The notes under the pieces: generated by a model
Told to the model about the DNA's origin: nothing
Databases searched by the model: none
Seen by the model: the letters and a program-made list of their open reading frames with translations, nothing else
In this document: positions 38,469-63,055 of the stretch, one piece after another
Layout of the letters: the number at the start of each line of letters is the position of its first letter
Numbering within the stretch: the stretch's first letter is position 1
Assembly: GCF_002157505.1 (NCBI RefSeq)
Contig: NZ_NFSC01000030.1
Span: 434,001 to 498,000 of the forward strand
Reading direction: 5' to 3'
DNA: 64,000 nucleotides
DNA from: Arthrobacter agilis
GTDB taxonomy: Bacteria > Actinomycetota > Actinomycetes > Actinomycetales > Micrococcaceae
Translations under genes and position numbers: made by a program

Positions 38469-39704
38469 ATGACAGTGATCCTGAGGTCCCTTGAAACGGC
38501 TGTACCCGACACGATCCTGGTGCAGTCCCAGGTTCGGGACGCTTTCGCGGCGCAACCGGGCCTCACACGGCTGGGGCAGCGCCTGGTCGGGGCGGCCTTC
38601 GACTCCTCGGGGATCGAGACGCGGTACACCGTCATCGAGGAACTCACCCTCGATAAAGTCTTCGACGCCCCCGTCTTCTTCGACCGGGAGGAGATGCTGG
38701 TCCTCTCCCCGAGCACCAAGACCCGTAACGAGCTCTACGCCGAGGCGGGCGCGAAGCTCTTCGTCCAGGCGGGACGGAAGGCACTCGAGGCAGCTCGGGG
38801 CATCGAGGCGTCGGACATCACGCATGTCATCACCGTCTCCTGCACGGGTTTCTTCGCTCCGGGCCCCGACTACAAGGTGGTGCGCGCCCTGGATCTCAAC
38901 CCGTCGGTGCAGCGCTACCACCTGGGCTTCATGGGCTGCTATGCGGCTCTTCCGGCGCTGCGGTCCGCGAAGGCCTTCTGCGAGGCAGACCCGGACGCCG
39001 TCGTCCTCGTGATCTCCGCGGAGCTGTGCTCCCTGCACGTCCGCTCGTCGAACAACCCCGACACCATCGTGGGATCCTCCCTGTTCGCCGACGGTGCGGC
39101 GGCAGCCATCGTCTCCGCGCGGGACATCCCGCTGGACGGGCCGGCCCTCAGCCTGGACCACTTCGAGACCGTCCTCACGCCCGTCGGGGAGGAGTCCATG
39201 GCCTGGAACATCGGCGACGAGGGTTTCGAGATGGTCCTCGGCACGTACGTCCCCCACATCATCGACGATCACATCGTGGGCGCCCTCGAACCGCTCCTGG
39301 CCCGTGACGCATCGCTCCAGGGCCTCGACTACTCGGACATCGAGCACTGGGCCATCCATCCCGGGGGGCGCAGTATCCTCGACAAGGTCGAGGCGAAACT
39401 CGGCCTGAGCCAGGAACAGCTCGTCCCGGCGCGTGAGACCCTGCGGAACTACGGGAACATGAGCAGCGCCACCGTGATGTTCGTGCTCAAGAACATCCTC
39501 GGCCAGCCGGTCAGCGACGGGAACAACCGGATCTGCTCGATGGCGTTCGGCCCGGGCCTCACGGTCGAGACCGCGCTGCTCACCAGGATCGGCGCCGGTT
39601 CCTCCGCCGCCGCGGCAACGGACGCCGCGGCAACGGACACGGCGGTCAGCGACGCGCCCGTTCCCGAGGACCTCGCGCCCGTTCTCGCAGAAGCCGGCGC
39701 ATGA
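38469..39704 (+). CDS. type III polyketide synthase (chalcone/stilbene synthase family)
   Basis: A 411-residue homodimeric ketosynthase that extends an acyl-CoA starter with malonyl-CoA and cyclises the product. The catalytic triad is visible: Cys in LGFMGCYAALPAL, His in AIHPGGRS, Asn in NYGNMSSAT. It resembles the bacterial alkylresorcinol/alkylpyrone group. An Ala/Asp-rich tail of about 45 residues follows the core. No Shine-Dalgarno precedes ATG 38469. Its stop overlaps the next ATG (ATGA), so it is coupled to the methyltransferase and FAD monooxygenase: a three-gene tailoring operon. Confidence 0.93.
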   Translation: MTVILRSLETAVPDTILVQSQVRDAFAAQPGLTRLGQRLVGAAFDSSGIETRYTVIEELTLDKVFDAPVFFDREEMLVLSPSTKTRNELYAEAGAKLFVQAGRKALEAARGIEASDITHVITVSCTGFFAPGPDYKVVRALDLNPSVQRYHLGFMGCYAALPALRSAKAFCEADPDAVVLVISAELCSLHVRSSNNPDTIVGSSLFADGAAAAIVSARDIPLDGPALSLDHFETVLTPVGEESMAWNIGDEGFEMVLGTYVPHIIDDHIVGALEPLLARDASLQGLDYSDIEHWAIHPGGRSILDKVEAKLGLSQEQLVPARETLRNYGNMSSATVMFVLKNILGQPVSDGNNRICSMAFGPGLTVETALLTRIGAGSSAAAATDAAATDTAVSDAPVPEDLAPVLAEAGA

Positions 39705-53316: not shown

Positions 53317-53431
53317 AAGCCTGCTTCCTGTTATCCGTTCGACTGTATCGCGGGTCGTGGGCTTCCGGTACCTGACCCACCGGGACCGGAACCTGTGACC
53401 CGGGGGCCCGGAGCGGTCCGGTAGGATGGAT

Positions 53432-53541
53432 GGTCGAAGGGGAGTAGCTCCGCGTCCCGAGGACGCGCGGCCTGTCGACATACTGGCGCCATGGGTGCCC
53501 GGCAGTCCACCGGATCCACCCGGCGAGCGAGACCTTCGGCC
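53432..53541 (+). promoter_or_regulatory. yybP-ykoY manganese riboswitch
   Basis: The hallmarks of the yybP-ykoY class are present in order. Helix P1 forms between GGTCGAAGG (53432-53440) and CCTTCGGCC (53533-53541) with one G-T pair. L1 has GGGGAGTAGC (53439-53448), the middle has GACATACT (53477-53484) and L3 has GCGAGACC (53527-53534). A GC-rich hairpin lies between L1 and the ACATACT element. The class senses Mn2+ and turns genes on. It is 84 bases before the start of the ferritin-VIT gene, in the same direction. A TAGGAT just upstream (53422-53427) could be the -10 box. Confidence 0.93.
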
Positions 53542-53563
53542 GAATCAGCGCACCTGCGTTCCC

Positions 53564-53588
53564 CGGCCGGAGCCTCCCGCTTCGGCCG
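53564..53588 (+). promoter_or_regulatory. expression-platform hairpin of the Mn riboswitch
   Basis: CGGCCGGAG (53564-53572) pairs with CTTCGGCCG (53580-53588) around a 7-base loop containing CTCC. The 5' arm can alternatively pair with the P1 3' strand of the riboswitch (CCTTCGGCC, 53533-53541), whose sequence is nearly identical to the 3' arm. No T-run follows, so control is more likely through the GGAG ribosome site at 53615-53618 than by termination. The mechanism is inference. Confidence 0.5.
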
Positions 53589-53625
53589 TGGCGCGCACGG
53601 GCACCCCGACCACCGGAGCATCCCC

Positions 53626-54723
53626 GTGACATCCCCTGAGCAGTCCCCCTCCCGGAACGACATCAAGCGCTGGCGCCAGTACCTCGCCGACGAACGCGGC
53701 GAGGCTGCCACCTACCGCGACCTCGCCCGCCGCAGGACGGGCGAGGAGCGCGAGATCCTCCTCGGCCTCGCCGAGGCGGAAGGCCGCCACGAGGCCCACT
53801 GGCTCCAACTGCTCGGCAACGACGTCGGACGCCCCCTGAGGCCCTCCATCCGCAACCGGATCCTCGGCGTGCTCGCCCGGCGCTTCGGGTCGGTCTTCGT
53901 CCTGGCCCTCGCACAGCGTGCCGAAGGCCGCTCCCCCTACGCGACCGATCCCTCCGCCACGAGCGCCATGGTGGCCGATGAGCAGATCCACGAGGAAGTG
54001 GTGCGGGGCCTGGCAACCCGCGGCCGCAACCGGCTGTCCGGGAACTTCCGGGCGGCGGTCTTCGGCGCGAATGACGGACTCGTCAGCAACCTCGCACTGG
54101 TCATGGGCATCGGTGCCACCGGCGTCTCTCCATCGTTCATCCTGTTCAGCGGGCTGGCCGGGCTGCTGGCCGGTGCCCTGTCGATGGGCGCCGGCGAATA
54201 CGTGTCCGTCCGGTCCCAGCGCGAGCTGCTGTCGGCGACACGCCCCACGCAGATCACCCTGACGGCGGCTAAGGAACTCGACATCGCGGCGAACGAACTG
54301 GTGCTCGTCTACCGCGCGAGGGGGATGACGCCGGCGGCGGCCGAGCACCGCGCGGCCGAGCGTCTCGGCCTGTACAGCTGCGACTGCGACCCGAGCTTCT
54401 CCCTCCAACCGGAGGAGGACGACGCCGTCGACGAGCACGAGGCGGTCGGCACGGGCCTCGGCGCCGCCGCGTCGAGCTTCTGCTTCTTCGCCTCGGGTGC
54501 CGTCATCCCGGTGCTCCCGTACCTCGTGGGCCTCAGCGGCGTGACGGCCGTCGTCGTCGCGTGCGTCCTGGTGGGACTGGCGCTGCTGGCCACGGGTGCG
54601 GTCGTCGCCCTGCTGTCGGGCGCCTCACCGCTGCGGCTGGCGCTCCGGCAGCTGGCGATCGGGCTCGGTGCGGCCGCCGTGACCTACCTGCTCGGCCTGC
54701 TCTTCGGCACGTCCGTGGCCTGA
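53626..54723 (+). CDS. ferritin-like/VIT1 fusion transporter (MbfA type)
   Basis: A 365-residue protein. Residues 10-150 form a rubrerythrin/ferritin-like four-helix domain with Glu and His ligands (DERGEAATYRDLA, GLAEAEGRHEAHWL, DEQIHEEVV). The C-terminal VIT1/CCC1 domain has NFRAAVFGANDGLVSNLALVMG, SMGAGEYVSVRSQRE and three further helices. Related proteins (MbfA, plant-type VIT) export iron or manganese. GTG at 53626 follows GGAG by seven bases; longer frames would cover the riboswitch and are rejected. Placement under a Mn riboswitch predicts a manganese exporter. Confidence 0.93.
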   Translation: MTSPEQSPSRNDIKRWRQYLADERGEAATYRDLARRRTGEEREILLGLAEAEGRHEAHWLQLLGNDVGRPLRPSIRNRILGVLARRFGSVFVLALAQRAEGRSPYATDPSATSAMVADEQIHEEVVRGLATRGRNRLSGNFRAAVFGANDGLVSNLALVMGIGATGVSPSFILFSGLAGLLAGALSMGAGEYVSVRSQRELLSATRPTQITLTAAKELDIAANELVLVYRARGMTPAAAEHRAAERLGLYSCDCDPSFSLQPEEDDAVDEHEAVGTGLGAAASSFCFFASGAVIPVLPYLVGLSGVTAVVVACVLVGLALLATGAVVALLSGASPLRLALRQLAIGLGAAAVTYLLGLLFGTSVA

Positions 54724-62981: not shown

Positions 62982-63055
62982 GCCTCTGTAGCTCAGTAGG
63001 ATAGAGCGTCCCTCTCCTAAAGGGAAGGTCGTCGGTTCGATTCCGGCCAGGGGCA
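62982..63055 (+). tRNA. tRNA-Arg (anticodon CCT)
   Basis: A complete cloverleaf is readable. The acceptor arms are GCCTCTG and CAGGGGC with discriminator A. The D arm contains AGCTCAGTAGGATAGAGC. The anticodon stem TCCCT/AGGGA encloses CTCCTAA with anticodon CCT (reads AGG). The T arm is GTCGG-TTCGATT-CCGGC. CCA is not encoded. Confidence 0.97.

Follow-up and report, generated by a model that had tools for sequence, protein, structure and literature searches.

The 64-kb window (the whole stretch of DNA analysed) from Arthrobacter agilis carries a gene in which a ferritin-like domain appears to be fused to a VIT1-type transporter, preceded by a structured leader. The question raised by this locus is which RNA forms the leader, which metal it would sense, and what the encoded protein would export. 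The explanation we favour is that a Mn2+-sensing riboswitch turns on a Mn2+-exporting ferritin-VIT protein, and as a whole we regard it as reasonably probable.

The ferritin-VIT fusion gene extends over 53626..54723 (+), from a GTG start to a stop codon at 54721-54723, and encodes 365 aa. The start given in the list of open reading frames, ATG 53491, falls inside the aptamer described below and was rejected. GTG 53626 was preferred because of its Shine-Dalgarno segment (CCGGAGCA, 53613..53620, +, recognized from the sequence) and the orthologue alignments, which begin at residue 1-3 for 29 of the 36 genus orthologues. GGAG or AGGAG is present upstream of the start in 27/27 scored genus leaders, the start having been chosen partly for that. 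The neighbouring genes encode an AMP-binding ligase on the opposite strand and a trypsin-like/PDZ protein downstream. A tRNA gene at 62982-63055 (+, 67.7 bits) is the only gathering-level Rfam match of the window.

Letter-level reading of the window places a complete four-way-junction aptamer of the yybP-ykoY type at 53432-53541 (+). A preliminary description had proposed such an element from the motifs GGGGAGTAGC (53439-53448), GACATACT (53477-53484) and GCGAGACC (53527-53534), a 9-bp P1 helix and a distance of 84 bases to the gene. All of these were borne out, with P1 formed by 53432-53440 and 53533-53541, and exactly 84 nt between its end at 53541 and GTG 53626. The 5' strand of P1 is GGUCGAAGG (53432..53440, +), and 6 P1 pairs are kept in the consensus of 33 leaders. 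The L1 motif GGGGAGUAGC (53439..53448, +) includes GGAGU, found in 89/89 sequences with letters there, while the next A is found in 89/90. The inner P1 helix GCUC (53447..53450, +) pairs with GAGC at 53525-53528 and has both-side changes at 3/4 pairs. It is followed by the P2 hairpin (53451..53467, +), variable and covarying, with both-side changes at 7/7 pairs and 87.4% of cells paired; gaps are numerous there. The P3 arm (53469..53506, +) consists of P3 (53473-53477 with 53500-53504), the L3 segment ACAUACU (53478-53484) and an upper stem (53485-53499), and the P4 hairpin CCGG...CCGG (53510..53523, +) shows both-side changes at 4/4 pairs. Both conserved loops, L1 GGGGAGUAGC and L3 ACAUACU, are present in the window sequence.

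A -10-like box TAGGAT (53422..53427, +), recognized from the sequence, ends 4 nt upstream of P1, and transcription would start around the first P1 base. TANNNT is located 8-10 nt upstream of GA[AG]GGGG in 141 of 168 scanned leader sequences, not all of which are distinct. No promoter was returned by a sigma-70 consensus scan.

Three observations place the element beyond chance. The pattern GGGGAGTAGC-N15-45-ACATAC has a single occurrence in the 3.88-Mb host genome (reversed control, 0), the leader is found upstream of 33/36 ferritin-VIT genes in the genus (34/35 genomes, two genomes with two copies), and its helices covary over 90 matches, as detailed below. The genus ferritin-VIT loci without the leader are L020, L024 and L048. 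With regard to second copies of the gene, L047 in genome G001 and L048 in genome G017, the leader is present on both G001 copies and missing from the second copy of G017. RNAalifold applied to the 33 aligned genus leaders resulted in a four-way junction that agrees with the yybP-ykoY architecture as presented in PMC11087558.

A covariance model, R1, was built from the 33 genus ferritin-VIT leaders only. It matches 91/245 genomes of the family (14/32 genera) and 129/345 genomes of the class (43/126 genera), these counts being lower bounds due to stricter search filters in the multi-genome searches; specificity of the model is judged from the genes found downstream. The window leader (53432..53542, +) scores 116.8 bits with E 1.3e-25 in a 71-kb search, being itself one of the 33 sequences used to build R1. 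Another match in the window, at 39100-39206 (-), was rejected (15.7 bits, E 0.15, no L1 motif seen). In an alignment of 90 diverse R1 matches, 97.0% of base-pair cells are paired, compared with 81.1% after shuffling, and both-side changes occur at 22/32 pairs; none of the 7 helices is without such a pair. The covariation score is 0.340, compared with 0.118 in shuffles and at most 0.058 when slid; since the alignment was fitted to R1, the covariation counts lean toward the R1 structure, and shuffles and slides serve as controls. L1, the GACA of L3 (90/90) and GAGAC are near-invariant in these matches, and the last four letters of L3 (UACU) vary within the actinobacterial branch.

Distribution of the leader is patchy, which counts against the favoured explanation. 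It was found at 20 of 80 named relatives, including Arthrobacter, Pseudarthrobacter, Kocuria and others, and its presence changes 6 times on the protein tree, compared with 18 times when shuffled. The tree comprises the window protein and those of 78 relatives (79 in all), of which 78 rows were scored; L214 and L218 were left out, as the motif was not found in them. Considering also the 91/245 family genomes with an R1 match, most relatives do without the leader.

Assignment of the leader to its class was made by structure and not by score, because the cut-off of the Rfam model RF00080 was reached neither here nor in any of 20 chosen element-bearing loci. On the window leader, RF00080 scores 18.7 bits (gathering cut-off 45; E 0.0034, local search), an outcome which the preliminary description had named beforehand as refuting. 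No gathering-level match to RF00080 exists anywhere in the 64-kb window, and there is none at E <= 0.001 across the host genome. Over 345 class genomes, the cut-off was passed in 0 and E <= 0.001 was reached in 6, but the search is lossy and the 0/345 is a lower bound: C. glutamicum, one of 14 control genomes, was not flagged despite its published Rfam hits. Firmer evidence comes from direct cmscan with RF00080 on the 20 chosen loci, GDT1 and MntP loci included, which disclosed 4 matches below the cut-off and 0 above. For this reason, the low score was not taken as refutation. The elements considered here differ in this respect from those of C. glutamicum, three of which had at one time been Rfam yybP-ykoY entries with 43.7-49.9 bits, one upstream of terC, according to PMC3890552. 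The current RF00080 model seems short of actinobacterial seeds.

The identity of the RNA is supported instead by its structure, its conserved loops and the genes that accompany it, and the leader very probably belongs to the yybP-ykoY class of Mn2+ riboswitches. Members of this class (RF00080; E. coli alx and mntP, L. lactis yoaB, the C. glutamicum terC leader) likewise fold four helices into a four-way junction, keep the L1 and L3 loops conserved and use P1 as the switching helix, as far as described in PMC11087558, PMC9190785 and PMC9495176; ON-type logic is presumed for the leader. One difference is in the target, which is here a ferritin-VIT gene.

The genes following R1 matches were assessed at 158 loci. 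These comprise 90 of the 93 matches within the family and 68 of the 127 located elsewhere in the class. Altogether, the next gene is ferritin-VIT at 83 loci, GDT1/UPF0016 at 61, Na/Ca-exchanger-like at 9, MntP at 3 and TerC at 1, and it is cut off at 1. Family loci (n = 90) have ferritin-VIT (83), Na/Ca-exchanger-like genes (6) and one gene cut off by the contig end, and the extra-family loci (n = 68) have GDT1/UPF0016 (60 by tblastn and one, L178, by Pfam), MntP (3), Na/Ca-exchanger-like genes (3) and TerC (1). Pfam confirmed six representatives of the downstream genes. Since R1 was derived from ferritin-VIT leaders only and yet finds GDT1, MntP and TerC genes, this company is an independent sign of the RNA class. 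MntP, UPF0016 and TerC are named as Mn-exporter families in PMC9334652, and yybP-ykoY precedes 328 of 333 screened UPF0016 genes according to PMC7380456. Genes downstream of R1 matches are thus mostly manganese-exporter genes. At one of the 83 ferritin-VIT loci, L134, only a short N-terminal ferritin-VIT stretch matches behind the leader, and the gene may be interrupted.

The same RNA branch stands upstream of GDT1/UPF0016 and MntP in other actinobacteria, as known for yybP-ykoY, although these proteins belong to other Pfam families (PF01169 and PF02659) than ferritin-VIT and are practically absent from the host family. GDT1 exceeds the cut-off in 0/245 family genomes, with 1 weak match, and MntP in 5/245, one of them strong, while ferritin-VIT is present in 243/245. 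Two terC genes were found in the host genome, outside the window, and they could also handle manganese; no Na/Ca exchanger was detected in this genome at E <= 0.001. The exporter search covered GDT1, MntP, ferritin-VIT, TerC and the Na/Ca exchanger.

The protein was described at first as a fusion of a ferritin-like domain with VIT1. Its VIT1 part is certain: PF01988 matches residues 141-357 with 187.8 bits (cut-off 28.1), and the same part is similar to the VIT1 crystal structure 6iu3 (phmmer E 3.7e-8) and has a Foldseek match with E 2.7e-5. Matched chains of the VIT1 structures 6iu3 and 6iu4 (224-234 residues) align to the VIT part only. D150 and M187 are invariant in this part. Sequence libraries do not support the ferritin-like part, as the only Pfam hit of residues 1-141 is a meaningless 0.077, and nothing significant came up when PDB was searched with this domain by hmmsearch. 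Residues 1-141 are predicted to form a helical bundle (pLDDT 80.8), for which Foldseek found di-iron/ferritin-superfamily matches with a probability of up to 0.97 and E 0.19 or worse. In 33 sequences, E23, E26, E52, H55, E100, E119 and H122 are invariant, and these residues may bind metal. The label "ferritin-like" is retained on account of the predicted bundle with its structural matches and the invariant E/H residues.

The same two-part build, an N-terminal ferritin-like domain and a C-terminal VIT/CCC1 domain in one chain, is reported for MbfA, the membrane-bound ferritin of alpha-proteobacteria (PMC7762939, PMC4902296); the likeness was judged by architecture. MbfA is regulated by Irr, and the ferritin-VIT gene is preceded by a riboswitch of the Mn2+ class. 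According to the same sources, MbfA of Bradyrhizobium and Agrobacterium is an iron exporter, which raises the alternative that the RNA senses Mn2+ while iron is what the ferritin-VIT protein exports. An excess of Mn2+, or a mis-loaded divalent metal, would then trigger iron export and keep the Fe:Mn ratio. The invariant ExxH and DExxH motifs would fit a di-iron site, which speaks for this alternative as well, and so do leaderless relatives of the gene.

Upstream of leaderless ferritin-VIT genes we observed a dyad, TTN[ACG]GG-N3-5-CC[TCG][AC]A, which we take to resemble operators of the DtxR/MntR family. The DtxR family includes iron sensors. An iron-box consensus scan led to a count of this dyad at 79 loci with enough upstream DNA. 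Within 250 nt upstream, it occurs in 44/59 leaderless genes and in 0/20 genes with the leader (mononucleotide-shuffle expectations of 1.2 and 0.5, respectively), a contrast that is descriptive only, as the pattern had been chosen with these very sequences in view. The dyad is mostly located 140-230 nt before the match start, for example in L241, L230 and L243. A swap between the site of a metal-sensing protein and an RNA switch is possible.

Against iron export stand the manganese genes GDT1, MntP and TerC, found behind this RNA in other parts of the class, together with the near absence of GDT1 and MntP from the host family. We therefore consider iron export rather unlikely, and export of manganese by the ferritin-VIT protein probable.

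A shift of ligand within the actinobacterial branch, to another divalent ion (Ca2+, Co2+, Fe2+) or to pH, would turn the targets into general divalent-cation exporters. It would accommodate the variable last four places of L3 (UACU), the Na/Ca-exchanger-like next gene at 9/158 loci, and the pneumococcal yybP-ykoY element, a Ca2+ binder in control of a Mn/Ca ATPase according to PMC9495176. However, hardly any variation is seen in L1 or in the GACA half of L3, and 65 of the 74 loci with another, uncut next gene have GDT1 (61), MntP (3) or TerC (1), making such a shift quite improbable. That the element is not a riboswitch at all, whether because the leader binds a protein or because its resemblance is due to chance, would agree with the RF00080 score below the cut-off, but it is hardly credible given helix covariation, near-invariant loops and one functional kind of downstream gene at loci drawn from 43/126 genera with a match.

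Na/Ca-exchanger-type genes behind R1 matches were seen in several actinobacteria. PF01699 was detected in 4/4 scanned (L138, L162, L180 and L183), and the remaining 5 (L079 and L122-L125) were assigned by similarity to L138 and L162. It is possible that they represent further manganese (or calcium) exporters.

Returning to the Mn2+ riboswitch, we addressed the way in which it could act on the gene. The P1 3' strand (segment A, CCUUCGGCC, 53533..53541, +; located by sequence and folding) is followed by its complement, segment B (GGCCGGAGC, 53565..53573, +), and the A:B hairpin is incompatible with P1. In all 27 scored genus leaders, 8/8 A:B pairs are possible; this scoring left out 6 of the 33 leaders (5 without a long enough locus and 1 without the protein motif), the window row used flanks of its near-twin L003, and the start of L011 looks misplaced. 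Folding without a metal term assigned A:B a probability of at least 0.8 in 20/27 leaders, and A:B forms in the unconstrained fold of a longer stretch of the window, while two rows of the near-twin L003, folded as a shorter stretch, gave 0.10-0.13 only. Beyond the genus, the duplex of A with downstream sequence beats 100 dinucleotide shuffles (p <= 0.05) in 68/82 ferritin-VIT, 35/50 GDT1, 2/3 MntP and 8/12 other leaders. The letters engaged in A:B pairing differ between genera (147 leaders).

As the P1 3' strand has a conserved alternative partner, its helix exchange with segment B is likely, the exchange with the expression platform being seen at the level of complementarity and folding. A similar relation is described for L. 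lactis in PMC11087558, where P1.1 and a terminator are mutually exclusive, as are P1 and A:B here. In our leaders, a run of at least 4 T after the A:B hairpin is rare compared with known yybP-ykoY systems, occurring in 5 of 147 (3.4%; control windows 1.6%), and no intrinsic terminator was found in the window. These two features make a translational outcome more likely than termination, even though the modelled release of the Shine-Dalgarno segment is weak. In constrained folding, the mean unpaired value of this segment is 0.36 compared with 0.27; it is higher in 19/27 leaders, with no effect in the second subgroup of the genus.

A four-segment model was also considered, in which segment C (GCUUCGGCC, 53579..53587, +) could have either of two partners, B and the Shine-Dalgarno segment. 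In this model, formation of A:B would let C hide the Shine-Dalgarno segment, and formation of P1 would let B:C free it. The model fits the window by eye, and it was rejected on the weak effect in constrained folding; the second subgroup of the genus showed no segment C. Because the mean Shine-Dalgarno effect is small, and none was observed in the second subgroup, only the A:B exchange is kept as supported.

Taken together, transcription of the leader would begin close to the first P1 base. Mn2+ would fill a pocket made of L1 and L3, as suggested by their conservation, holding P1 closed and barring A from B. Without Mn2+, A would leave P1 and form a long hairpin with B; the pairing itself is conserved, and its presumed effect is to turn the gene off. 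The gene would most likely be kept off through a hidden ribosome-binding site; a few lineages may use a U-tailed terminator instead. At high Mn2+ the gene would thus be turned on, and the ferritin-VIT product would then presumably export Mn2+, replacing GDT1 and MntP, which are nearly missing from the family. The data support the element itself, its conservation and the alternative pairing, and Mn2+ as ligand, the ON direction and the effect on the gene are inferred.

We lean slightly towards a broader proposal, according to which VIT transporters form an unrecognised class of bacterial Mn exporters. Ferritin-VIT of Micrococcaceae would have assumed the role of GDT1 and MntP, its control being swapped between a Mn2+ riboswitch and a DtxR/MntR-type operator, with the ferritin-like domain maybe acting as a metal-loading or Mn-oxidising intake. 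The portion of a 2022 review considered here (PMC9334652) names MntP, CDF, P-type ATPase, UPF0016 and TerC as bacterial Mn exporters, and VIT is not named there. PMC10986025 describes a fall of two Rhodococcus genes during phage infection, one of the VIT family and one of UPF0016. Among the matches listed from open-licence PMC papers, none joins yybP-ykoY with a VIT or ferritin-VIT gene.

If the proposal holds, the VIT transporter family would join the short list of bacterial manganese exporters, and a job would be assigned to the protein carried by nearly every genome of the family. An under-modelled branch of the Mn2+-riboswitch class, located on a gene family that PMC9334652, in the portion considered, does not list among Mn exporters, is well supported. 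Within a riboswitch that has been studied thoroughly, this is an actinobacterial branch of considerable size whose scores with the present Rfam model stay below threshold, and the 129 R1-matched genomes of the class can serve as immediate test cases.

In addition, both host terC genes have a weak R1 match upstream, at L288:1155-1263 (24.8 bits) and L287:2350-2460 (21.5 bits), on contigs C20 and C21, which counts in favour of the manganese explanation. Their leaders carry the GGGGAGUA, GUCAAUACG/GUCAACACG and GAGAC motifs and look yybP-ykoY-like; cmscan, with E up to 5, gave no listing of RF00080 for them. A regular-expression search did not reveal the terC leader motifs in L293, L300-L306 and L311-L318. 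The L288-type leader, with L1 and GAGAC motifs, recurs in genus relatives L290-L292 and L294-L299 (L289 being its own copy), and the L287-type leader recurs in genus relatives L308-L310, with a related one in L307.
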